Assembly: GCA_029547025.1 (NCBI GenBank)
Contig: JAKPQA010000273.1
Coordinates: 1 to 33,465, forward strand
Length of the DNA: 33,465 nucleotides
Source of the DNA: Armatimonadota bacterium
GTDB taxonomy: Bacteria; Armatimonadota; Zipacnadia; UBA1398; JAKPQA01
Direction: 5' to 3'
The notes below the pieces were generated by a model that saw nothing but the letters and a program-made list of their open reading frames with translations, searched no databases and was not told the DNA's origin. This document shows positions 2,662-29,066 of this stretch, piece after piece. The translations under genes and the position numbers were made by a program. How positions within the stretch are numbered: the stretch's first letter is position 1; each line of letters begins with the position of its first letter.

Positions 2662-3270
2662 CTACTGGCCGGGGTCCGGCGGCTGAGCGGTGGGGTGCTT
2701 GTCCTTGGACGCTTCGAGGTCGGCCTGCACGAACATCTCCGGCGTCAGCTCCAGGTCACGCAGCTGGACGAGGAACCGCCAATTCTCACGAGTACCGATG
2801 GAGTCGTTGATGGCGTTGTGCAGGGCGTCAGTGCGCTGCTCCTCGTGGGGGAACGGGCCGTCCCAGCCCACGTCAGCACGCAGCTGCTCCAGGTCCCGGA
2901 TGAAGTAGGGCCATCCTTCGGGGAGATCATCCATGGTGCCGAAGAGCTGGCACACCAGCACCCAATCGTAAGCACCGCAGTCGGCCCAGAACTCAGGCGA
3001 CCAGGCGCCCTCTTCGAGGTGCTCGTTCACCCACTGCAACAGGACGTGAGCCGCCTCCTGCTTGCCGCAGCGGACGTACCGCACGCCGGGCGGGGGCTCG
3101 TCATCCAGGTGCGGGATGACTGCCACCTGGACGAAGGTGTTGGCGAGGCTCCGGTCGGCGTCCTCGAACACGATGTACAGGGCGGCCCCGCTCTCCGTGT
3201 TGATGCCGAGGGACAGCGGGATGATGGTGCTGCCGTCCTCCATGAACTCCGAGTCCAAGAAAAAGCGCAT
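2662..3270 (-). CDS. RNase AS-like DEDDh 3'-5' exonuclease
   Basis: A 202-residue protein opening with MRFFLDSEFMEDG, the hallmark start of the mycobacterial RNase AS group (DnaQ-like fold). Catalytic acids are visible as Asp6 and Glu8 (DSE), Asp102 (GAYDW), and His151 with Asp156 (HNAINDS), matching a DEDDh active site. The family trims adenylated 3' RNA ends; in a phage it may act in RNA turnover or as a general exonuclease. The C-terminal ~25 residues are charged and Pro-rich. The ATG at 3270 overlaps the upstream stop as TGATG, which fixes the start in preference to an in-frame start further upstream. Confidence 0.78.
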   Translation of the reverse strand: MRFFLDSEFMEDGSTIIPLSLGINTESGAALYIVFEDADRSLANTFVQVAVIPHLDDEPPPGVRYVRCGKQEAAHVLLQWVNEHLEEGAWSPEFWADCGAYDWVLVCQLFGTMDDLPEGWPYFIRDLEQLRADVGWDGPFPHEEQRTDALHNAINDSIGTRENWRFLVQLRDLELTPEMFVQADLEASKDKHPTAQPPDPGQ

Positions 3271-3650
3271 CACAGGCTCCCTTCGTAGCGGCTGATGATC
3301 TCGTGTGCCCATGCGAGGGCGTCTTCAACACGTTGCTCCATCAGCTCCAGGAAGTCGTCCTCCTGGAGAATGACATACTTCTTGCCGTCACGCCCGATCT
3401 GGACGTGGAACACCGGCATGCGGTCGGCGAGGATGGCGTTGGTACGCAGCTCCTCCAGGTCCTTGACCTTGACGGTGATCTGCTTCTCGCCGTCGGTGTG
3501 CTTCATCTCCCACAGGCACTCGTCGTCCCGCAGGTCGTTCTTGTGGCGCCACTGGTTGCCGGAACCGGCGTGCAGCGTGCCGCCCCTGATCTCGGCGATG
3601 CGGGCCTCCTGCGCCCGTGAAGCGTCGAGTGGCGTCTTCGGCCTACGCAC
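3270..3650 (-). CDS. Second PD-(D/E)XK nuclease, resolvase-like
   Basis: A 126-residue protein with GSGN (residues 29-32), an acidic pair at Asp39/Asp42 (NDLRDDE), the E-x-K motif at Glu48/Lys50 (WEMKHTD), a helix (KVKDLEELRTNAILADRM) and a strand (PVFHVQI). This is the order seen in Hjc/phage resolvase-type nucleases that process branched DNA. The GTG start at 3650 directly abuts the RecA stop and has AGGAG five bases upstream, a strong site. Being co-translated with RecA points to recombination intermediates as substrate. It differs clearly in sequence from the nuclease at 125-532, so the two are not recent duplicates. Confidence 0.75.
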   Translation of the reverse strand: MRRPKTPLDASRAQEARIAEIRGGTLHAGSGNQWRHKNDLRDDECLWEMKHTDGEKQITVKVKDLEELRTNAILADRMPVFHVQIGRDGKKYVILQEDDFLELMEQRVEDALAWAHEIISRYEGSL

Positions 3651-14315: not shown

Positions 14316-14935
14316 GCCCCCAGCTGCGGGAGGTTGATGATCGTGGCGTACTCCGTGAGGAGCCGCCCGAGCATGGAGTTGGGCGGCGGGAGCTTCCGGC
14401 CGCAGAGCACGGTCACGAGCCCGAGGTCGAGCCGCTGCTTGATGAGCTTGTCCAGCTCCATCTGCTTGTAGTCGGGCAGGTCCCAATAGAAAAGTTCATC
14501 AATGACCAGGGGCTCGATCATCGTGAGCTTCAGGAAGGCGTTCTCGTAGACCCGGAACTCCTCCCAGAGCATGTCGTTGCGGGTGTCGTTGACCAGCATG
14601 CGCTCGTACCAGCGCTTGCGCTCCAGATCCTCGACGTAGCGTGACTCACTCCAGTAGCCCATGCGGTGGGCGCCGCAGAGCATGGCGGCGTACACGCCGA
14701 GCCACGTCTTGCCGGACTTGTACTCGCCGTGGAGATACAGACACCGTGAGTCGTCGTCCTCGGCCCACTCCTTCATCCGCACGTGCATGTTGATGCCCCG
14801 GTGCGGGAGCTTGGAGGCGCTGAGGTGGAACACCCGGGGGTCGCCGGGCATCGTCGCCGTCTCGGCCACCACGGTGCTGATCGGCTTGCCGATGTCGGTG
14901 ACCGGCCGGAGGTGGGGGATCTCGTCGTCGCTCAT
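14312..14935 (-). CDS. DnaC-like helicase loader (AAA+ ATPase)
   Basis: A 207-residue P-loop ATPase with Walker A GEYKSGKT (70-77) and Walker B PLVIDEL (142-148), followed by LVTVLCGRKLP, a sensor-type segment. Size and arrangement match DnaC/IstB-type loaders: a ~50-residue N-terminal part for helicase contact and one AAA+ core. It would load the DnaB-like helicase at the origin or at forks, using the initiator encoded just upstream. ATG at 14935 overlaps the initiator stop by four bases (ATGA). A C-terminal ARG-finger region is not obvious, so the family call rests on the P-loop, size and gene order. Confidence 0.82.
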   Translation of the reverse strand: MSDDEIPHLRPVTDIGKPISTVVAETATMPGDPRVFHLSASKLPHRGINMHVRMKEWAEDDDSRCLYLHGEYKSGKTWLGVYAAMLCGAHRMGYWSESRYVEDLERKRWYERMLVNDTRNDMLWEEFRVYENAFLKLTMIEPLVIDELFYWDLPDYKQMELDKLIKQRLDLGLVTVLCGRKLPPPNSMLGRLLTEYATIINLPQLGA

Positions 14936-16146
14936 TGGGCCGCCCGGAACTGCTCAGGGATATACACATCGACGGGCGCAGCCTCCTCGGCGGCCCGGCG
15001 AGCACGATACGCCTCCTGCTGGGCTCGGAAGGCATCGGCCGTCTCGTCCACGGGGGCCGCAGCCTCCTGGGCACGGCGCAGCTTCTCGAAGTCCTTGGCC
15101 ATGTACCGGAACACCGGCATCCGATCACCAGGCTGAGGGACCTCTCCGGAAGCGACCATCGAGCAGTAGGCCACGATGGCCTCGGCCGCCGCCTCCTCGG
15201 AGCCGCAGCGGGGGATCAGATCCTTGTTCAGCCAGGCGTGGAAGACGGACTTCTGCGAGCCCGCCCAGGGCTGGAACGGGAGCGAGAGCTTGTTGACGGC
15301 CGCACGGGTCTTGGCCCACTCGGACTCGAACAGCAGCCCGAGCCGGAAGGCAGGGGCGTGGGTCTTCTTCGGCTTCTGCACGTGGTCGTCGGGCTGGGAC
15401 TCTGGGGCTCCCAGGTCCACGCCGTTCGTGGGTCGCTTCAACTCGTCCTCCTCGACGGTCGCAGACAGTATCACACTCCTGGGTCGGCGGGGGCGAAGCC
15501 GCCGCACTTCTCTAGAAGTACTACTCTCTCCCTTACTATCTATGGTGCTCGTGGGGAAGGAAATACCCTCCAAAAAGCCCGAGATTTCGGGGGTCTCAGG
15601 CTGTAGCAACAAAGTTGCGAGCGTGCCATTCTGGCACTCTGAGAATGCCAATTTGGCACTCTCACCGCTGAAGACTTCCTGCGCCAGCTTGTCGTCCAGC
15701 ATCAGGATATCAACAACACAAGCAAATGTGACCCGGTAGACGGGGTACTCGCCGGGCTTCTTGAGGGACGCCACGGAGCGCACCTCGGAGGTCATGACGC
15801 CTGCCTCGTGGAGCATGGTCAGGTGCCGGTGGAGCGACCTGAGTGACACACCGAAGCGGTCGGCCCAATCGCTCATGCTCTTCGTCTGGACCCAGGCCCA
15901 GGGCTCGGCCGGGTGGCTCCGGCGGATGATCTCGGCCAGCAGTCCTCCGGCCGGTCCGAGTCGGTTGTTCTTCGCCCAGCGCTGCGCATTGTTGGCGGCG
16001 GTGGTGCGGTAGCGGTAGAAATCTCTGCGCATCTCGTCCTGAGTAGGGTGTTGCGCTGCGTGGTAGATACCGTCTATGTTGGAAGGCGTACGCAGCGGGT
16101 GTTGGCTGTAACGGTTGCTCGGTGTTGATGTCGGTGGTGGAGACAC
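14932..16146 (-). CDS. Replication initiator-like protein (winged helix N-terminus)
   Basis: A 404-residue protein. Residues ~84-140 contain a winged-helix domain (KSMSDWADRFGVSLRSLHRH followed by LTMLHEAGVMTS and a wing). A poorly ordered Ser/Thr/Pro-rich linker (~160-260) and a helical C-terminal domain (~265-360, LLFESEWAKTRAAVNKL...WLNKDLI) follow. This is the architecture of phage initiators such as lambda O: an origin-binding N-terminus, a linker and a loader-interacting C-terminus. The gene directly precedes the DnaC-like loader, as O precedes P. The linker DNA carries clustered dyad repeats (15506-15662). The GTG at 16146 is only marginally spaced from AAGGAG; ATG at 16032 (residue 39) is an alternative start. 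Confidence 0.72.
   Translation of the reverse strand: MSPPPTSTPSNRYSQHPLRTPSNIDGIYHAAQHPTQDEMRRDFYRYRTTAANNAQRWAKNNRLGPAGGLLAEIIRRSHPAEPWAWVQTKSMSDWADRFGVSLRSLHRHLTMLHEAGVMTSEVRSVASLKKPGEYPVYRVTFACVVDILMLDDKLAQEVFSGESAKLAFSECQNGTLATLLLQPETPEISGFLEGISFPTSTIDSKGESSTSREVRRLRPRRPRSVILSATVEEDELKRPTNGVDLGAPESQPDDHVQKPKKTHAPAFRLGLLFESEWAKTRAAVNKLSLPFQPWAGSQKSVFHAWLNKDLIPRCGSEEAAAEAIVAYCSMVASGEVPQPGDRMPVFRYMAKDFEKLRRAQEAAAPVDETADAFRAQQEAYRARRAAEEAAPVDVYIPEQFRAAQ
15624..15640 (+). repeat. Iteron-like repeat 1
   Basis: TGCCATTCTGGCACTCT: a 5-3-5 dyad followed by CTCT. It matches repeat 2 at 15 of 17 positions, starting 22 bases earlier, i.e. about two helical turns, so both would face the same side of the DNA. 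Confidence 0.65.
15646..15662 (+). repeat. Iteron-like repeat 2
   Basis: TGCCAATTTGGCACTCT: the dyad here is six bases per arm (TGCCAA-T-TTGGCA). Same CTCT flank as repeat 1. Its mismatches to repeat 1 fall only in the dyad centre. Confidence 0.65.
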
Positions 16147-16233
16147 TCCTTCGTTGGCCGGTTGTGGTGACCTGACGGGCTGACCATACAGCCAGCACCC
16201 CTGCGGTGTCTACCAAGGCAGAGGAATCTCTCG
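16147..16233. promoter_or_regulatory. Divergent intergenic region between replication module and rightward cassette
   Basis: An 87-base region between the GTG of the leftward initiator gene and the GTG of the rightward membrane protein gene. By position it should hold promoters for both directions. A rightward candidate is TTGTGG (16162-16167) with CATACA (16185-16190) at 17-base spacing, but it matches consensus poorly. On the minus strand AAGGAG sits directly at the initiator start; on the plus strand AGAGGAA lies eight bases before 16234. No convincing operator repeats were seen here. Confidence 0.4.
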
Positions 16234-16530
16234 GTGATCCATCTCGTGCTCGTTGCTCTCGCAGTCCACCTCGTCTCGACGGTGTTGACCATGCAGCCGC
16301 TCACGATCACGCTGCCCCGTTGGGCCTGGCACTCCGTGTGGGGTGTTGTGTGTGTCACTGTAGAGTGTGTTACTGTCGGCGGCGACCACTGGCTCCAGGG
16401 CCTGGCCGCCGGAGGGCTCGCACTCATGCTGAGCCGCTTCGATGATTTCCTCGTGACGGCTGCCGACCTGGCGCTGCTGCGACTCAAGCGTGCAGCCTTC
16501 GATCTGCGCACCAAGCCCCCAACCCCATAG
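16234..16530 (+). CDS. Small multi-span membrane protein
   Basis: A 98-residue protein, first gene of the rightward cassette. Hydrophobic segments lie at residues ~2-20 (IHLVLVALAVHLVSTVLTM), ~33-50 (HSVWGVVCVTVECVTVGG) and ~53-67 (WLQGLAAGGLALMLS). An amphipathic basic C-terminus follows (LLRLKRAAFDLRTKPPTP). The GTG start at 16234 has AGAGGAA at good spacing, and the stop overlaps the ribosome site of the next gene, which supports co-translation. Size and topology would fit a holin, but no endolysin is adjacent; a membrane effector or sensor tied to the two following genes is another option. Function not established. Confidence 0.58.
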   Translation: MIHLVLVALAVHLVSTVLTMQPLTITLPRWAWHSVWGVVCVTVECVTVGGDHWLQGLAAGGLALMLSRFDDFLVTAADLALLRLKRAAFDLRTKPPTP

Positions 16531-16542
16531 GAGTATCACATC
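16529..16542 (+). promoter_or_regulatory. Ribosome binding site of the Acb2/Tad1-like gene
   Basis: AGGAG (16529-16533) overlaps the upstream TAG stop and lies nine bases before ATG at 16543. The leader GGAGTATCACATC resembles that of the leftward gene starting at 2626 (GGAGTATCTCAC). Confidence 0.7.
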
Positions 16543-18231
16543 ATGGCAATCATGCACTTCGTCGCCGGTACCGGCACGATGCCCAAGGCCGAGGCCAAGG
16601 CCGTCCTCAACGACCTCTGGGCCGCCGAGGACCACCTCACCCCCACCGGCCAGCCCGTCGGGATCTACTTCGTCATCGAGGCGCAGGTCGATCCGGGCGA
16701 GGGTCACCAGTCCATCGTGGAGTGGATGCACGAGCAGGGACTGACGTACTACGTCATCTCGCCCCCCGGCCAGCAGCCGCACGTGCTCTACAACGGAGCC
16801 ACCCAGGTCATGGACGGTGCGGCGATCACGCCCTTCATCTACGCCCAGAGCGCCGTGGCGCAGGGCATGCCGGTCCAGCTCCTGGCGCTGTTCGTGGACG
16901 CCTCCAACGAGAACCCGCTCGACGCCCAGCTCGTCCAGACGGTGGAGTCCTTCACCGATGCGGGCTACCCGGCCAAGGCGATGAACGCCCAGATGTGGGA
17001 CCTCAACATGACGGCGCCCGAGGAGGCCGTGGTCGATCCGGCCCAGACCGCCGTCGCTCAGCTCCCGCAGGCGGCGCCCGTCGCTCCGGTGCAGCAGGCG
17101 CCCGTCGCCCCGGCGATGCCCGCCCCCGTCGATCAGACGGCCGCTCCGGCCGGTCCCGTCGGCCAGGTGCAGGCGCCCGCCTTCATCCAGAGCCCGCCCG
17201 AGCAGCTGGCGGCACCCGTCGCCCCCGCTCCCCTCGACCCGGCGGCGCAGGCCCAGGCCGACGCCTACCAGCAGCAGCTGGCGGCCATCGAGGCCCAGCA
17301 GGCGCAGCTCCCGGCGGCACCGAACCCGCCCTCCGTCGAGGCCCCGGCCAACCCGAGCCCGGCGCCCGCCCCGGCCCCGGCCCCGGCCGGTGGTGTGCGC
17401 TGGCCCACCGACGGCGAGCTGGACGAGATGACCATCGCCGACAAGCGCACGCTGGGCAAGGACCTGTTCGCCAAGAACCTCATCCCGGCGCCGGTCGCCG
17501 ATGATGGCCGGGCGCCCAGCTGGAAGGCCGGTGACCCCATCGTCCTCGCCATCAAGCTCGGTCGTGCCGCCGCCCTCGGCACTCCCGCTCCGGAGGCCAC
17601 GGCGCCGCCCGCCGCCGTCGTGGAGCCGGTGCAGCCCCCGACGCCCGCCGGTCCCCCCGGGATGACCCTCACCGAGGCCGTCGCTGCCCAGCACGGCGGC
17701 GTGCTCCCGTCGTACATCACGCCGCCGGTTACCGAGGGTTCGGTCGTGCCGGTCGCTCCGGGCCAGGTCGTCAGCGCTCCCGTCCTGCCGGTGGCGGCCC
17801 CCGCCGACTACCAGGTGGCCATGTCGGCGTCGGCCGGTGAGGAGGAGATGTCGGCCAACGCTCTGCCGCCGGGCGAGCCCACCACCCTCGGCCAGCTCAC
17901 GCCCGAGCAGTTCGCCCAGCAGGGCAAGGACATGCTGGAGCACCGGGCCACCGAGCGTGGCATCGAGATCTTCCGCTCGAACTTCCCGGTGGCCACCATC
18001 GGCACCGAGACGGCGAACGACATCTCCCTGCTCCACGAGCACGGCAAGGACTTCGCCGAGGCGGTCTACCGCATCACCGGCCGCCGGAGCCCGGAGCTGA
18101 CCGTGGCCATCAACAAGGTGCAGGAGGCCATCTTCTGGGCCGAGGCCGCCATCACCCGCTACGACGGCGTGGAGCCCGACATCAGCTTCATCACGCAGTC
18201 CCCGGCCTTCCCCAAGGAGCCGCAGGTCTGA
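16543..18231 (+). CDS. Multidomain protein with C-terminal Acb2/Tad1-like hairpin domain
   Basis: A 562-residue protein in three parts. Residues 1-152 look like an alpha/beta Rossmann-type domain: strands HFVAG, GIYFVIEA, TYYVIS and LLALFVDAS alternate with helices. Residues 153-285 and 345-440 are Pro/Ala/Gln-rich linkers around a small folded segment (286-345, TDGELDEMTIADKRTLGKDL and onward). Residues ~465-542 contain a helical hairpin: ISLLHEHGKDFAEAVYRIT, a GRRSPE turn, then LTVAINKVQEAIFWAEAAIT. The second helix matches the pattern (alternating A-L-T-K-L-E-E-A-x-F-W-A-N-A-A-I-x-R) that I associate with Acb2/Tad1 proteins, which sequester cyclic oligonucleotides or gcADPR to block CBASS or Thoeris. 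Fusion to a large N-terminal region is unusual, as characterised family members are short. The family call is from memory of the pattern. Confidence 0.68.
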   Translation: MAIMHFVAGTGTMPKAEAKAVLNDLWAAEDHLTPTGQPVGIYFVIEAQVDPGEGHQSIVEWMHEQGLTYYVISPPGQQPHVLYNGATQVMDGAAITPFIYAQSAVAQGMPVQLLALFVDASNENPLDAQLVQTVESFTDAGYPAKAMNAQMWDLNMTAPEEAVVDPAQTAVAQLPQAAPVAPVQQAPVAPAMPAPVDQTAAPAGPVGQVQAPAFIQSPPEQLAAPVAPAPLDPAAQAQADAYQQQLAAIEAQQAQLPAAPNPPSVEAPANPSPAPAPAPAPAGGVRWPTDGELDEMTIADKRTLGKDLFAKNLIPAPVADDGRAPSWKAGDPIVLAIKLGRAAALGTPAPEATAPPAAVVEPVQPPTPAGPPGMTLTEAVAAQHGGVLPSYITPPVTEGSVVPVAPGQVVSAPVLPVAAPADYQVAMSASAGEEEMSANALPPGEPTTLGQLTPEQFAQQGKDMLEHRATERGIEIFRSNFPVATIGTETANDISLLHEHGKDFAEAVYRITGRRSPELTVAINKVQEAIFWAEAAITRYDGVEPDISFITQSPAFPKEPQV

Positions 18232-18266
18232 ACCAAGACGCCAGGGCATGCCGAGCGCCTGGACAG

Positions 18267-18311
18267 GAAGGCCCGTCGGGTGGTGACGCATCACTTCCCC
18301 GGCGGGCCTTC
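18267..18311 (+). terminator. Long hairpin between the Acb2/Tad1-like and RyR genes
   Basis: GAAGGCCCG (18267-18275) pairs perfectly with CGGGCCTTC (18303-18311). Inside it GTGGTG and CATCAC pair with one G-T wobble around ACG. What follows is TGCTTGAT rather than a T run, so it may act as a partial terminator, an attenuator that sets the ratio of the two proteins, or an mRNA-stabilising hairpin. The rest of the 119-base gap holds a smaller CCAGG/CCTGG hairpin (18241-18262) and the AAGAGG ribosome site of the next gene. Confidence 0.55.
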
Positions 18312-18849: not shown

Positions 18850-19725
18850 TTACCCGATGATGCCGTTGGCCACGACGCCCGAGGAGCGCCAGTTGGCGTC
18901 GCTGAAGATCGTGCCGTAGTGGTCGCCGGTCGAGACCGGGAACACCACGCCCCCGGCGTCGTAGGCGTCCTGGAACGAGTCCACCGGGCCGAGGGACACC
19001 ATCGACATCGACATCTGCTGGAGCGTGGCGGTGAAGTGGGCCGGGTTCTCGTCCACGGCTCCCGTGAGCGTGGGGGTGAGCACGCCGTCGGCGAAGCTGT
19101 AGGTCAGGGCCTTCTGCTCGGAGGCGCCGAAGTACTCGAAGCGCCAGCGCAGCTCGTCGTTGGGAGCCATCATCACCAGCTCGGTGTCCTTCAGCACGAA
19201 GGGGTACTTGGCCGTGTCGGCGGGCGAGATGCCGGTGTCGAAGGGATAGGCCGACTGACGCACCGAGGCGCCCGGCCAGCTCTGGCCACGGTAGAAGCCC
19301 ACCGAGCCCGACATCGAGTGGCTGGTGAAGCCCCGGAGGCTCCACTGCACCAGGAACATGCGGGAGAGCCCGTCGGCGGGGGCGATGTACTTCCAGCCCG
19401 CCAGGTCGGTCGTGGGGCGCAGGAGGGCCGTGATGCGGCTGAAGCGGGTGGCCTGCGAGGCGATGAGCTTGCTGCGGAGCCAGAACCAGTCGGGGGCGTC
19501 GGTCTCGACCCGGCCCGGCCAGTCCGGATCCTTGTAGGTCCAGGTCGTGTCCCGGTCGAAGGGGATGCCCGAGGTCGTGTCCTCAGTGACACCCTGGAAC
19601 GACTCGATGCCCACCGAGGGACGGAGGGTGTCGTAGATGTCGCCGATGTCGGAGGGCTCGATGCCGCCCTCGTCCTGGTCGTTGCTGAACTTCGCCTTGA
19701 GCTGGGGGGCGGTACGGTCGGGCAT
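18850..19725 (-). CDS. Putative tail appendage or receptor-binding protein
   Basis: A 291-residue protein, last gene of the tail module. There is no clear motif; it is rich in aromatic and beta-favouring residues (WTYKDPDWPG, WKYIAPADGL, SVGFYRGQSWPG), typical of phage adhesion domains. The start MPDRTAPQLKAKF is like that of small proteins placed at the distal end of phage tail operons. The ATG at 19725 overlaps the upstream stop (TGATG). The call rests on position after the minor tail proteins and on composition; an alternative is a chaperone or a head decoration protein. Confidence 0.5.
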   Translation of the reverse strand: MPDRTAPQLKAKFSNDQDEGGIEPSDIGDIYDTLRPSVGIESFQGVTEDTTSGIPFDRDTTWTYKDPDWPGRVETDAPDWFWLRSKLIASQATRFSRITALLRPTTDLAGWKYIAPADGLSRMFLVQWSLRGFTSHSMSGSVGFYRGQSWPGASVRQSAYPFDTGISPADTAKYPFVLKDTELVMMAPNDELRWRFEYFGASEQKALTYSFADGVLTPTLTGAVDENPAHFTATLQQMSMSMVSLGPVDSFQDAYDAGGVVFPVSTGDHYGTIFSDANWRSSGVVANGIIG

Positions 19726-22199
19726 CAGATCTCCTCGATCTCGGTGACGGGCGTGCTGCTCACGTCCTTGACGGGAATGAACAGCTCCCCAGGCCAACAG
19801 GGTAGACGGATGCCGTACACCTCGTCCCACTGCGGGATCACATCGGCGCCTTCGGGCACGTAGCCCCAGGCTGCGCCGCCGACCCGGTGGAGCACCGTCA
19901 GGTCCGTGAGGTCGAGCTGGCCCAGCAGCTCGGGCACGAGGCCGCCGGGCGTGCCGGGGTCGGGAATGAGGTGTGTCACACCCAGCGTGGCGCCAGCGAT
20001 GCCGGTGGCCAGGAGCTTGTCCCGTGCCTCCTGCACCGAGGCGTTCTCGTCAATGATGATCGTCGGCGAGCTGACGGCCCCGTACGGAGCGAGGTCGAAG
20101 ACGGCGCCGTCCTTGGCCACCTCCTCGGTGTACCCGAACAGGTAGGCGTCCTGATTACGGCGGTCGTTGTAGTAGAGGGAGTAGCTCCGGTTGCGGAGGT
20201 TCATCAGCGGGTCGGGAGCGTAGGGCACGATGGCCCCGGTGTCGCCCCACGAGCCGTACCAGCTGAAGTCGCCCTGCATGCCGGTGTGCCAGTCGCCGTC
20301 GAAGAACCCGAGCTGGGCGGCATTGTTGTCCACCAGCACGTTGTCCACCCACATCTCCTCGCCCAGGAACTCCAGGCGGAAGCACGCCTCCTCGGCACGA
20401 TCCGGGAGCTGCACGAGGTGCCGGAGCGGGTGGAACACGGCGTCCGAGCTGACGCTGACCCAGGGACCGTGGGTGTAGCTCGGCACCAGCTTGGCGGGGT
20501 CCCACGTCACGAGGCCGATGCGGGCGAGCCCGGTGCCTGCGACCTGGGCCTCCAGCGACATGAAGCGGTCCTGGCTGACGGCGGTGGGGAAGAGGTTCGA
20601 CTCCAGCACGATGCGGTTCATCGTGACGGCCTCGATACTCCCTATCGAAGGGAGATACTCATACGGATCGCCACCCGTGATGTGGCCCGACTTCGGCCGG
20701 GCGCCAGAGCCCAGCGGGCGGGGGCCGGGCACGCCGACGGTGCCGCTGTTCACGATGTCTATGTCGCCGTTGGTGCGCCAGCCGAAGGCAGCGAGGGGGA
20801 CCGTGGAGAGGAACTCCATCGTCAGGATCTCGGTGACCTTGTTCTCGTTGCCCGGCGTGGTGGGATTCGGCAGGCCGGTGAAGCTCAGGGGCTCGGTGCC
20901 GAACTGCACGAGGTAGTTCGAGGCCGACGACGGCACCCAGCGCCCGGCGATCTGCATCACGAACCGGCCGTTGACGTGCTCGCCTGCCTCGGGGATGAGG
21001 GGGTTCGAGACCACCGTGGTGCCGCCGAGCTGGTTGGTGTCGAAGCCGACGGCCACGATGCCGGTGTTGAACTCGGCGCCCGCCACGATGACGAGTGACT
21101 CCTCACTGGTGAGGTCCACGCCCGAGATGCCGTAGAGCACGGCGTTGAAGGTGCCGATGGCCCGGGTCCCGGCCAGGGCGCCGGTCTTGTCGAGCCCTGC
21201 AGCGATCGAGCTGATCTCCACCGACGTGGGCTCGACGGTCGTGATGGCCACGAGCCAGCCGTCGGAGCGCAGCGTGAACCAGGGGTCGGGGAGGATGTCG
21301 TACACCTTGGGGTCGGCCCCGGCAGCGTCGAACACGAAGACCCAGACCTTCACGTCAGGGTCGCTCGGGGCGCCCGGCAGGCCGAAGGTTCCAGAGCCGA
21401 AGGTCCCGGTGCCGAAGGTGCCAGCGGTCAGCCCGATGGTCACGTCCATGTCGCCCTCGGCGTCGCCGGACAGCTCGTAGAGCTTGCTGTAGGTGACACC
21501 GTTCAGCAGGCCGTTGACATCGACCTCGAAGCTGGGGTTGGCCACCATGTTGGTGCGCTGGGGCAGCATCCACGAGTGAGCGCAGCGAGAGGGCTCCCAC
21601 TCGGTCTGCGGCACGCTCATGTTGATGGTGCCGGGAACGAGCTGCGGTCCGGCCGGGGGGGCGCTTCCGATGGAGGACCATGACACGATGTAGAAGTCAG
21701 GCAAGCCGCCGACAGCCAGCCAGATTGAAGCGTTGGCCACGGGCTCCCAGCTGACGGTGAGGGTGAACTCGTAGACCCCCGCAGCCAACGGCCCCTCAGG
21801 CTGGTTGACGCCGATCACCGGAAGGATGAACTCCCCATGGGAGATACTCAGGTGGGCCGAAAGTGTCGGTCCAGCAGGCTGCGAGTGCACCTCGATGGTG
21901 GCCGACGTGGCCTCGGTGATCGTCTCTCCAACGAACGGGAACATGCCCACGGCCGAGACCGGGAAGCCGAACACGTTGATCCCGCCAGGCAGCTCCACGT
22001 CCCCTGCCTCGACACTCTCGGGGTTGGTGACCCGCAGCCTCACGGAGAATGAGGTAGTCACTGCCCCCTCGTCTCCTCCGGAGAGAGCGAAGAGGACAGC
22101 GCCGCCGTCTCCAGTGACGTGGAGTAGAGCACCCACGCTCTGAGGCAGGGCAGGGGTAACGGTGGGCCCGGACGCAGCGCCCGCAACGAAGATAGGCAT
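19725..22199 (-). CDS. Large minor tail / fibre protein with carbohydrate-binding-like domains
   Basis: An 824-residue protein, beta-rich throughout. It has a short FGTGTFGSGTFGLPG repeat near residue 270 and, around 600-660, EEMWVDNVLVDN followed by GFFDGDWHTG and SWYGSWGDTG. Such W-x-DNV and FFDGD...W segments are common in actinophage minor tail proteins, where they end jelly-roll, carbohydrate-binding-like domains. It most likely contacts the cell envelope. Codons near 20636-20664 contain two GATACTC direct repeats. ATG at 22199 overlaps the upstream stop. Receptor specificity cannot be inferred. Confidence 0.68.
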   Translation of the reverse strand: MPIFVAGAASGPTVTPALPQSVGALLHVTGDGGAVLFALSGGDEGAVTTSFSVRLRVTNPESVEAGDVELPGGINVFGFPVSAVGMFPFVGETITEATSATIEVHSQPAGPTLSAHLSISHGEFILPVIGVNQPEGPLAAGVYEFTLTVSWEPVANASIWLAVGGLPDFYIVSWSSIGSAPPAGPQLVPGTINMSVPQTEWEPSRCAHSWMLPQRTNMVANPSFEVDVNGLLNGVTYSKLYELSGDAEGDMDVTIGLTAGTFGTGTFGSGTFGLPGAPSDPDVKVWVFVFDAAGADPKVYDILPDPWFTLRSDGWLVAITTVEPTSVEISSIAAGLDKTGALAGTRAIGTFNAVLYGISGVDLTSEESLVIVAGAEFNTGIVAVGFDTNQLGGTTVVSNPLIPEAGEHVNGRFVMQIAGRWVPSSASNYLVQFGTEPLSFTGLPNPTTPGNENKVTEILTMEFLSTVPLAAFGWRTNGDIDIVNSGTVGVPGPRPLGSGARPKSGHITGGDPYEYLPSIGSIEAVTMNRIVLESNLFPTAVSQDRFMSLEAQVAGTGLARIGLVTWDPAKLVPSYTHGPWVSVSSDAVFHPLRHLVQLPDRAEEACFRLEFLGEEMWVDNVLVDNNAAQLGFFDGDWHTGMQGDFSWYGSWGDTGAIVPYAPDPLMNLRNRSYSLYYNDRRNQDAYLFGYTEEVAKDGAVFDLAPYGAVSSPTIIIDENASVQEARDKLLATGIAGATLGVTHLIPDPGTPGGLVPELLGQLDLTDLTVLHRVGGAAWGYVPEGADVIPQWDEVYGIRLPCWPGELFIPVKDVSSTPVTEIEEI
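19970..19982. repeat. Odd palindrome GGTGTG-T-CACACC
   Basis: A perfect 13-base dyad inside the large minor tail gene, with the shared 9-mer GTGTCACAC at 19973-19981. Confidence 0.4.
20650..20659 (+). repeat. Dispersed 10-mer GGGAGATACT, copy 3
   Basis: Lies in the large minor tail gene beside a second GATACTC (20634-20640); CTCCC and GGGAG flank TATCGAA as a small inverted repeat. Confidence 0.5.
21839..21848 (+). repeat. Dispersed 10-mer GGGAGATACT, copy 4
   Basis: In the same large minor tail gene but in a different reading frame from copy 3: the antisense codons here read Ser-Ile-Ser rather than Tyr-Leu-Pro. Confidence 0.5.
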
Positions 22200-22708: not shown

Positions 22709-24562
22709 CTACGCCCCCGAGGGGTCTCCCAGCACCTTGTCGCCGCCCAGGAGGTGGTCTCCGGGCTCCTGGGGATCGTGGCCCAGGCGGAAGAAGATAT
22801 CAGGCCCGTAGCTCACGATGCGGCCCGCCTCGTTCTCGGGGCTCACCATGACGGCGGCGATGAAGCGGGACGAGATGTTGGCGGCGTCGAACTCGATGAC
22901 GGGGCAGGCGAACTCGGCGGTCGAGGGAGCCTGGAACGTGCCGATGACGTACTCCCACGTGTTCGCCGTGGTGATGGTGGGGGCGTAGGTCTCGACGGTC
23001 AGCGCCAGCGGGTCGATGGTGCGGTACCCCTTGAACCGGCGGCTGAAGGCGTCGCTGAACGCCTCGTTGCCCTTCACCGAGCCACGGGAGTACCAGGCGA
23101 AGCCGAAACGTACGTTCGATTCGTCGGCGGTGACGGCCACGGGCTCGCCGGAGAACTGGTCCGGGCGCACGCCGGAGCGGGCGAAGTAGAACGAGAGGTA
23201 GTACCTCTTGCCACCGACGATCGGCACGCCGTAGAGCGTTGGGTTCTGCTCGATCTTCTTGTAGGAGTCCACGTCCTTCTGCACCAGCTTGGTGCCGATG
23301 CCGCAGGTCGCTGCCAGGCGGCTCGTGATCTGGCCGAGGCCATTGGTCTTCCAGGCTGCGCCGTCCCAGACCGGCGCCAGGCGCATCACGCCCCGACCGA
23401 GCTTGAGCTTGGGCGTGCGGGTCTCGACGGCGGGCGGGTTGATCTCGGACGTGAGGCTGATATCGGTATCGAGCGTTCGCACGAAGTCGATGGCCGGGCC
23501 GTGTAGCTGGCCGAGCTGCTCGGCGACGTTGGCCGCCGGAGTGGCCCAATGTCCCGTGGCGTTCAGGAACTCGGAGTCGTCGCTGACCAGCATCTCGTTG
23601 CGGCCCGGCGTCACGACAGTGACATACTGGCTGGCCGTTTCGATGAACGCCTCCAGGCCCGGGACGGTGCCCCGCAGGCGGGCCAGCTCGTTGGCTCGGG
23701 CCGTCACCCGCCGGAAGCGCACGTCACCGAGCGCCGAGCTGGGCTGGATGCCGAAGTTCTGCTCGCCCAGGGCTCGGTAGAGCTGCATCGGCGCCCGGTC
23801 GGCCGAGTAGATGTCCTCGACGCCCTCGGCCTCGGTGCGGATGAAGTCGAGGTTGTAGCCCATCACCGACAGCAGGCGCCGGAGCGGGCTCTTGCCCACG
23901 CCAGCGTAGGAGTCGTCGTCCACCCAGCGGTAGTACGGCGGGAGCATGTCCCAGAGGATCTGCTCGTGGCCGTAGTTGACCGGGACCAGGCAGTGCGCTC
24001 GCTTCACGAGCTGCCAGTCGTAGGGGTTGGTCTTCACGAAGAAGGAGTAGTAGTACCACCGGCCGGGCTGGAGGTTGGCGTCGATGGTGCCCCAGAGCTT
24101 GAGGTTGGTCTCGGTGTCGAAGACCGGATCCACCTCGTTCCGGCGGCGCAGCACGATGGGAGTGCCGTCGTTCGGCGTGGCCGGGAATCCGTAGCCCGAG
24201 CGGGTGACACACATCCAGCTGAACTTGGACAGGTCGGCCGTGTCCACGCCCCAGCGCAGCGCCAGAGCGCCGAGCTTGTCGGGCTGGTGCGCCAGGGCGT
24301 TGACCTCCAGCAGGGCCTCGCTGGCGTCCACCACGGCCGCCGGGACGGGCGGGAAGCGCAGGTACGCCGGGTAGGTCTGGTACACCACGTTCGATGGCGG
24401 GATCCATGGTCCGTAGGGGTCCAGGTCTGGGCGCAGGACCACTTTGTCGGCCGCCGATGCCTCTACCCACTCCTGGCGCTCCGGCGAGTACTCACCACGA
24501 ACCTGATCACCTCCCCAGGGCTCCTCGGAATAGCCCCACTGGTAACTGTCGGGGCTGCTCAT
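22709..24562 (-). CDS. Baseplate protein, P2 gpI-like, with inserted binding domains
   Basis: A 617-residue protein. Residues ~215-310 (LPPYYRWVDDDS, SVMGYNLDFIRTEAEGVEDI, FRRVTARANELARLRGTVPG, LEAFIETAS) match the gpI/wedge-type pattern in which a Leu-Arg-rich helix is followed by GTxxGLE. Both flanking parts contain beta-rich, WYYYSFFV- or RYYLSFYF-type strands, similar to each other, which look like carbohydrate-binding-type jelly rolls. In P2-like and other contractile phages gpI follows gpJ and completes the wedge. Here only the small PKD protein intervenes. ATG at 24562 overlaps the PKD gene stop (ATGA). The extra domains suggest that it also bears adhesion functions. Confidence 0.68.
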   Translation of the reverse strand: MSSPDSYQWGYSEEPWGGDQVRGEYSPERQEWVEASAADKVVLRPDLDPYGPWIPPSNVVYQTYPAYLRFPPVPAAVVDASEALLEVNALAHQPDKLGALALRWGVDTADLSKFSWMCVTRSGYGFPATPNDGTPIVLRRRNEVDPVFDTETNLKLWGTIDANLQPGRWYYYSFFVKTNPYDWQLVKRAHCLVPVNYGHEQILWDMLPPYYRWVDDDSYAGVGKSPLRRLLSVMGYNLDFIRTEAEGVEDIYSADRAPMQLYRALGEQNFGIQPSSALGDVRFRRVTARANELARLRGTVPGLEAFIETASQYVTVVTPGRNEMLVSDDSEFLNATGHWATPAANVAEQLGQLHGPAIDFVRTLDTDISLTSEINPPAVETRTPKLKLGRGVMRLAPVWDGAAWKTNGLGQITSRLAATCGIGTKLVQKDVDSYKKIEQNPTLYGVPIVGGKRYYLSFYFARSGVRPDQFSGEPVAVTADESNVRFGFAWYSRGSVKGNEAFSDAFSRRFKGYRTIDPLALTVETYAPTITTANTWEYVIGTFQAPSTAEFACPVIEFDAANISSRFIAAVMVSPENEAGRIVSYGPDIFFRLGHDPQEPGDHLLGGDKVLGDPSGA

Positions 24563-28389: not shown

Positions 28390-28746
28390 CTACTTGTACG
28401 GGAGGTCGTTGTGGTTGACGGGCACTTCAGTATCAGGGTCGATGTCGTTGGCCGTGAAGGCCCGATGGTGGCCGTTGCGCAGGAACTCACCATTGCGGAA
28501 GGTAGCACCTTCGTGCTCCGGCCAGCCGCTGAGGTGATACACACCCACAGGCTCCTTGACCCCTTCGTGAGCGATGCCCTTGTATAGCCCGGTCGAGCCC
28601 GCCACAGCTACCTTCTGTTCAGCCAGTGCGCCGATGTCGCCCTTGGTCTGGTAGGCATCGCCGATCTGAATCTTGGCAGGATCCACAAGATCCCGGGCGG
28701 GCCGGAACATGTCGAGCTGCTGGAACTGCTGGGGGTTGAGGCTCAT
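28390..28746 (-). CDS. ParB/sulfiredoxin-fold-like protein 1
   Basis: A 118-residue protein. The C-terminal part (FRNGEFLRNGHHRAFTANDI, then DPDTEVPV) has the signature of the ParB/sulfiredoxin fold, in which an N/D-G-x-H/N-R motif (NGHHR, 91-95) binds nucleotide. It shares GHH-x2-A-x5-IDP-x4-PV with the next upstream gene, so the two are diverged relatives. Some ParB-like phage proteins are nucleases or CTPases. There is no DNA-binding HTH. ATG at 28746 has GGGAGGAACG before it, a strong site that rules out the GTG twelve bases upstream. Its place in the tail operon is unexpected. Confidence 0.62.
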   Translation of the reverse strand: MSLNPQQFQQLDMFRPARDLVDPAKIQIGDAYQTKGDIGALAEQKVAVAGSTGLYKGIAHEGVKEPVGVYHLSGWPEHEGATFRNGEFLRNGHHRAFTANDIDPDTEVPVNHNDLPYK

Positions 28747-29066
28747 CGTTCCTCCCACTCGACCGGCAGCTGCATCTGCGGGTCGATCTCGAAGGCGGCG
28801 GCGATGTTGTGGTGGCCGTCCTGGATGGCGTGCTCGCCGAGGCGGCCCTCACGTCGGAGCTTCACCGGGTGCGTAGCCCCCTTGGTGGCGATGGACTTCA
28901 CCATGTCCACGGGGGTCTGGCCGAGCTTGACCCGCCACATGTGTGGGGCTCCGGCGTACTTGGACTCGTCCTGCTCCAGCGACGCCGTGTGGCGCAGCTG
29001 AGCGGCCGTCATCGTCGCCGGGAGGGCGTCGGGGAACTGGCGCTGGCTGAGGTTGTTGATGTTCAC
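28743..29066 (-). CDS. ParB/sulfiredoxin-fold-like protein 2
   Basis: A 107-residue protein with RREGRLGEHAIQDGHHNIAA (71-90) and FEIDPQMQLPV. The DGHHN motif (83-87) corresponds to the D/N-G-H/N-R nucleotide-binding motif of ParB/sulfiredoxin-like domains, with Asn in place of Arg. An earlier segment, WRVKLGQTPVDMVKSIATKG (44-63), resembles the family's first strand and helix. The GTG start at 29066 overlaps the stop of the NlpC/P60 gene (GTGA), and its stop overlaps the start of relative 1. Whether it retains catalytic activity is doubtful because the Arg is replaced. Confidence 0.6.
   Translation of the reverse strand: MNINNLSQRQFPDALPATMTAAQLRHTASLEQDESKYAGAPHMWRVKLGQTPVDMVKSIATKGATHPVKLRREGRLGEHAIQDGHHNIAAAFEIDPQMQLPVEWEER

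Follow-up and report, generated by a model that had tools for sequence, protein, structure and literature searches.

An Acb2/Tad1-family hairpin at the C-terminus of a conserved tail/replication-junction protein in a BRock-like phage

A gene for a 562-amino acid (aa) protein, located on a contig of 33,465 nucleotides from an Armatimonadota genome bin (the whole contig is referred to here as the window), raises the question of what a helical hairpin of the Acb2/Tad1 family does at the end of a large phage protein. A sequence-only reading of the window had described this fusion as a possible undescribed counter-defence architecture, in which the capture of a ligand could be coupled to binding, hydrolysis or membrane localization.

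The open reading frame (ORF) 16543–18231 on the + strand is a real gene, as its GC content at codon positions 1, 2 and 3 (0.74, 0.50 and 0.94) follows a coding pattern and a Shine–Dalgarno-like sequence lies at the usual distance from the start codon. Coding on the antisense strand was considered and rejected, since the ORF 16210–18294 has a GC content of 0.90, 0.49 and 0.73 at the three codon positions and shows no such pattern. The 562-aa translation of the sequence-only reading was confirmed and the limits it gave to the domains were nearly correct: an alpha/beta domain at residues 1–147, a small helical domain at 290–345, disordered tethers and a hairpin at 488–539. Absent from it were two further helices (233–254 and 454–471), the inversion of this single gene and the existence of orthologues. 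The gene is laid out as follows.

16529–16533, + strand: Shine–Dalgarno-like AGGAG, 9 nt upstream of the ATG at 16543
16543–18231, + strand: the 562-aa gene, inverted relative to all flanking phage genes
16543–16998, + strand: N-terminal Rossmann/SLOG-like alpha/beta domain, residues 1–152, from AlphaFold2 and orthologues; common to the relatives
16999–17397, + strand: first tether, rich in Pro/Ala/Gln, residues 153–285; pLDDT 34–39 over much of its length
17239–17304, + strand: predicted helix inside the first tether, residues 233–254; pLDDT about 90
17398–17577, + strand: small helical SAP/Rho_N-like domain, residues 286–345; helices with pLDDT of about 80–93
17578–17901, + strand: second tether, rich in Pro/Ala, residues 346–453; pLDDT mostly below 50
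17902–17955, + strand: additional helix N-terminal to the hairpin, residues 454–471; pLDDT about 75
18004–18159, + strand: Acb2/Tad1-type helical hairpin, helices 488–512 and 517–539, from AlphaFold2 and a Pfam match to residues 491–539

The window is contig C217 of a 6.3-Mb bin and its content is that of a phage. On one side of the gene lie the tape measure, LysM, gp25-like and J-like baseplate genes. On the other side lie those for DnaB, primase, helicase, DNA polymerase, UvsX/RecA, a Holliday-junction resolvase and a Cas4-type exonuclease. Both blocks, as well as the immediate neighbors 14932–16146 and 18850–19830, are on the − strand, and between them only the target has the opposite orientation. 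The RecA of the window is nearest to those of the Streptomyces phages BRock and LuckySocke (38–39%) and the gene order agrees with both. The window thus comes from a phage of the BRock type, with a contractile tail. This phage is probably split over several contigs of the bin, as the terminase on contig C99 and the portal on contig C118 are 47–50% identical to those of LuckySocke. We infer that C99, C118 and C217 make up one phage, with the interval between terminase and portal divided between contigs. Genes of a BRock-like phage for the terminase, portal, scaffold and capsid are found in the regions L201 (G000:C99:1-6000) and L202 (G000:C118:4000-10183), and the ends of these two contigs have near-identical coding sequence in common.

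Two other genes of the window were noted in passing. The Holliday-junction resolvase (3270–3650, − strand) ends in a C-terminal helix, EQRVEDALAWAHEIISRYEGSL, encoded at 3273–3338, which is absent from all orthologues examined. It is the sole other ORF in the window that resembles helix 2 of the target hairpin (VQEAIFWAEAAITRYDG), with a phmmer E-value of 0.005 over 439 ORFs and 1.2 for the next. With the family helix profile the E-value is 14. This likeness was first spotted by eye and is weak for that reason; the resolvase and the target could have a docking helix in common. A small ORF inside the tail block (28743–29066, − strand) appears by eye to be ParB/Srx-nuclease-like (LRREGRLGEHAIQDGHHNIAAAFE), which is an unusual location.

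The assignment of the hairpin depends principally on Pfam. Residues 491–539 match PF24729 (Acb2_Tad1_hairpin) at 27.2 bits with an E-value of 4.6e-6 when the whole protein is searched, only 0.2 bits above the curated cut-off of 27 bits. Residues 436–562 alone reach 29.8 bits (E 7e-7), and nothing else in the 6.3-Mb bin passes the cut-off. The first 9 of the 58 profile positions, the binding motif included, are unmatched in this protein. Of the 439 stop-to-stop ORFs in the window, only this one is recovered with a hairpin profile made from IMG/VR members (E 5.6e-6); the pattern used to collect these members came in part from the helix of this very protein, and the Pfam score is the sole independent test of membership. 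AlphaFold2 predicts the paired helices with a 4-residue turn between them (pLDDT about 75), and helix 2 retains the residue pattern of the family, E-(x)3-A-(x)2-K-(x)2-E-A-x-F-W-A-x-A-A-I-x-R. A phmmer search of the hairpin against the PDB gave no match. The fold search with the full-length model was dominated by the N-terminus, with no Acb2 or Tad1 among the 50 matches listed.

The narrow margin over the cut-off, the unmatched binding motif and the empty PDB search are what would be expected of an ordinary amphipathic helical hairpin that has neither ancestry nor assembly in common with Acb2 and Tad1. Such convergence is improbable, however, given the E-value of the C-terminal piece, the family pattern retained in helix 2 and the lack of any other match over the cut-off in 6.3 Mb. 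The joining of an Acb2/Tad1-family hairpin to a large phage protein, as first read from the sequence, is thus a real observation with a marginal score.

The arrangement differs from that of the characterized family members. Acb2 (T4 Vs.4 and Pseudomonas phage p26; PF24729), which has the same helical hairpin and the conserved helix-2 core, is a stand-alone protein of about 90 aa, whereas here the hairpin terminates a protein of 562 aa. Tad1 (Thoeris anti-defence 1; 7uav, 8kbe) belongs to the same hairpin family and has an N-terminal antiparallel beta-sheet directly before its helices. In the present protein, by contrast, a disordered region with one helix precedes the hairpin, and the Rossmann-like domain is more than 300 residues away.

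A small separate hairpin protein could also be made besides the long one, from an internal start at ATG 17848 (residue 436) or ATG 17821 (residue 427). An AGGAGG sequence does lie at 17840–17845, upstream of ATG 17848, but it is separated from this codon by only 2 nt, it may be there by chance since its letters form in-frame Glu codons, and the region has no promoter-like site on the + strand. This makes a second product very unlikely.

Direct searches of phages, viral contigs and genomes with the full-length sequence returned no relatives, and the tblastn matches to the N-terminus in phages were chance ones only. A search with the neighbor 14932–16146 and a viral scan with the Holliday-junction resolvase were equally without relatives. 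The relatives were reached via other neighboring genes, DnaB for a distant group and baseplate J for a close group, and then by profile search. Orthologues are present in BRock, in LuckySocke and in about 30 distinct sequences of IMG/VR.

The baseplate J route led to phages with 44–52% identity over most of J, in which the corresponding slot holds orthologues with phmmer E-values of 7e-14 to 2e-7. This close group comprises about 16 distinct sequences that have the slot, the N-terminus, the tether and probably the SAP-like segment in common with the target. Wherever homologues of the tail genes 22709–24562 and 19725–22199 lie on the stretch covered, these orthologues directly follow them, and the replication block of the relatives is syntenic with that of the window. 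The slot of the target, between the tail block and the DnaC/DnaB block, is also that of the BRock group. The IMG/VR orthologues (L073–L092 and L181–L195) are about 290–350 aa in length with a mostly acidic or Lys-rich tether, compared with 562 aa here. BRock gp120 and LuckySocke gp104 share the genome slot, the N-terminal fold and an Ala/Lys-rich tether.

In the distant group (L009–L063), the slot protein has a GxG alpha/beta domain at its N-terminus, then a small segment that reads ‘ETLEMMP..LVKRMAK’, and ends in a short domain. The profile of this group matches the close-group members L073–L075 with E-values of 5e-9 to 3e-7 and weakly reports the target as the sole ORF among the 439 of the window. 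An hhalign comparison of the target with the distant group scored 28.2, against at most 21.2 in 150 shuffles. Since slot, sequence and fold agree, the target, the close group and the distant group are one family, and an undescribed protein family of the tail/replication junction in BRock-like phages is thereby defined. Outside the hairpin, the protein is old and conserved among phages rather than a scaffold built for counter-defence.

The orthologue is also inverted relative to the tail genes in L089 (16546–17541, − strand) and in L191/L192 (5980–6846), so the gene has been flipped repeatedly at the junction. An assembly chimera was rejected in view of these inverted copies and of the relatives that occupy the same slot. 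Among the distant relatives, L013 (6711–7190, − strand) and L035 (6976–7575, − strand) carry at the junction a gene on the opposite strand that, judged by eye, resembles Dps/ferritin (FMAHGYHWNVEGQDFSQYH).

The N-terminal domain is modeled with a pLDDT of 86 and a pTM of 0.82. It matches the fold of BRock gp120 from the same genome slot (E 2.4e-5, TM 0.73). Its nearest folds otherwise are those of the SLOG superfamily (LOG/YvdD, molybdenum cofactor carrier protein, DprA and YspA), the members of which bind nucleotides. Matches to the PDB (molybdenum cofactor carrier, LOG) have a TM of about 0.5, the best E-value being 2.5e-3 at a TM of 0.46, and a DprA-like match was found among viral models (E 1.5e-4, TM 0.50). 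No SLOG family appeared in the Pfam search of the whole protein and no GGxGT-type motif was seen in this domain. The start of residues 286–345 aligns, in a partial alignment, with the segment of the relatives that has weak, sub-cut-off Pfam matches to SAP and Rho_N; Pfam has no match for this segment in the target itself. The SAP-like segment would bind nucleic acid. Pfam revealed no hydrolase or membrane domain, and membrane anchoring and a hydrolase role were both rejected on this ground.

It is the C-terminal tip that varies between members of the family. Judged from their sequences, the relatives end either in an amphipathic helix (e.g., L074, L083 and L181) or in beta-strands followed by a helix (e.g., L092, L183, L191 and L035). 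PF24729 was found in none of 15 and none of 26 IMG/VR records of relatives, some of which exceed 100 kb, and the further relatives from the profile search likewise had no hairpin. As the relatives are without PF24729 and their tips differ, the hairpin is a lineage-specific tip of a conserved protein, with the tip being swapped between lineages.

In BRock and LuckySocke, gp120 and gp104 lack the hairpin, which is instead a separate 70-aa gene (gp154 and gp72, respectively), one in each phage, between terminase and portal. The same interval in this bin, within the reach of C99 and C118, has no hairpin. The rest of the bin was also searched for a stand-alone copy, and no second hairpin was found in the 6.3 Mb. 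In a sample of 80 IMG/VR hairpin loci, the ORFs have a median length of 80 aa and reach at most 261 aa when counted from the first possible start; in 291 genomes of the phylum, the other matches over the cut-off lie in frames of 84–106 aa. No other fusion of comparable size occurs in either set. Thus, the part of the earlier proposal that concerns a new domain architecture stands, with no comparable fusion among the loci and genomes searched, while the counter-defence function is unproven. No paper on hairpin fusions was found among the open-access papers searched, which is not proof of absence. A same-phylum genome (L096, 1246–1641, + strand) contains a 132-aa frame in which a hairpin helix (NREASLAITKLEEALLWLKREKEK) is fused to a different N-terminus; it falls just below the Pfam cut-off.

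Whether the tip could capture a ligand depends on a small number of residues. In Acb2, Tyr11 (aromatic) and Lys26 (basic) serve the binding of cyclic dinucleotides, and Arg67, the Arg of GRE, belongs to the cyclic-trinucleotide site. These residues were positioned by aligning T4 Vs.4 to the solved p26 protein, with the numbering of chain 8h2j. The equivalent of Tyr11 is Val483 in the ungapped alignment or Ile486 in the gapped one, and the aromatic residue is lost in either case. The equivalent of Lys26 is Glu499 in the ungapped Pfam alignment and Lys502 with a 3-residue gap. Arg67 corresponds to Pro517 or to a gap, with Arg514 and Arg515 nearby, and its equivalent is probably lost or displaced. 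The conserved RFxFHP motif is lost as well, and the Asn of WANAAIAR is replaced by Glu534. The core of helix 2 is kept (F531, W532, A535-A536-I537 and R539, the last being the C-terminal Arg of the family). On this comparison, the partial loss of ligand-site residues weakens the sponge claim. It does no more than weaken it because members of the hairpin family are divergent; T4 Vs.4 itself, inspected by eye, has no Arg at the Arg67 position.

A tethered sponge is a possible though less favored function, in which a hexamer of the Acb2/Tad1 type would sequester a cyclic oligonucleotide or gcADPR while the remainder of the protein anchors it at phage DNA or at a replication or assembly site. The Pfam match and the prediction of one helix followed by two long ones, as in Acb2, are consistent with this, and the fused copy could have taken over the role of the stand-alone hairpin that BRock and LuckySocke possess and that is absent from C99 and C118. 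This last point depends on the union of three contigs in one phage, and the substitutions listed above argue against a sponge. The bin also has no CBASS SMODS nucleotidyltransferase and no ThsB, which says little as the bin may not be the host. Cyclic-nucleotide capture, as proposed from the sequence, is so far unsupported.

An oligomerizing tip is at least as likely as a sponge. Acb2 and Tad1 assemble as hexamers (PMC12043709; PMC10419184). The hairpin would act chiefly as a self-assembly module, given that its family forms hexamers and that it replaces an amphipathic helix that is probably of the coiled-coil type. The present hairpin was modeled as a monomer only, and its oligomeric state is taken from the family. 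Assembled hairpins would bring a number of N-terminal and SAP-like domains together in a single multivalent particle, and cyclic-nucleotide binding, if any is left, would be an additional and unproven activity. The partial loss of ligand-site residues alongside the retained helix-2 core favors such a role; the family’s C-terminal Arg and the lysine that the gapped alignment places at the Lys26 position count against it. On balance, the likeliest reading, with about an even chance, is that the hairpin tip of this conserved modular junction protein of BRock-like myophages serves chiefly for multivalent assembly.

Assembly and capture could also be combined. In this unlikely arrangement, an oligomeric hairpin tip would sequester a cyclic nucleotide, the tethered SLOG-like domain would bind a nucleotide-derived ligand and the SAP-like domain would bind nucleic acid, giving an anchored sponge for two signals. 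If true, immune signals would be captured at the site of phage replication.

The hairpins of Acb2 and Tad1 have been known as small, stand-alone sponges, and here a member of their family occupies the exchangeable end of a conserved phage protein with several domains. Either the sponge architecture extends to anchored, multivalent forms, or a PF24729 match in a large protein calls for a binding test before it is labeled anti-CBASS or anti-Thoeris.
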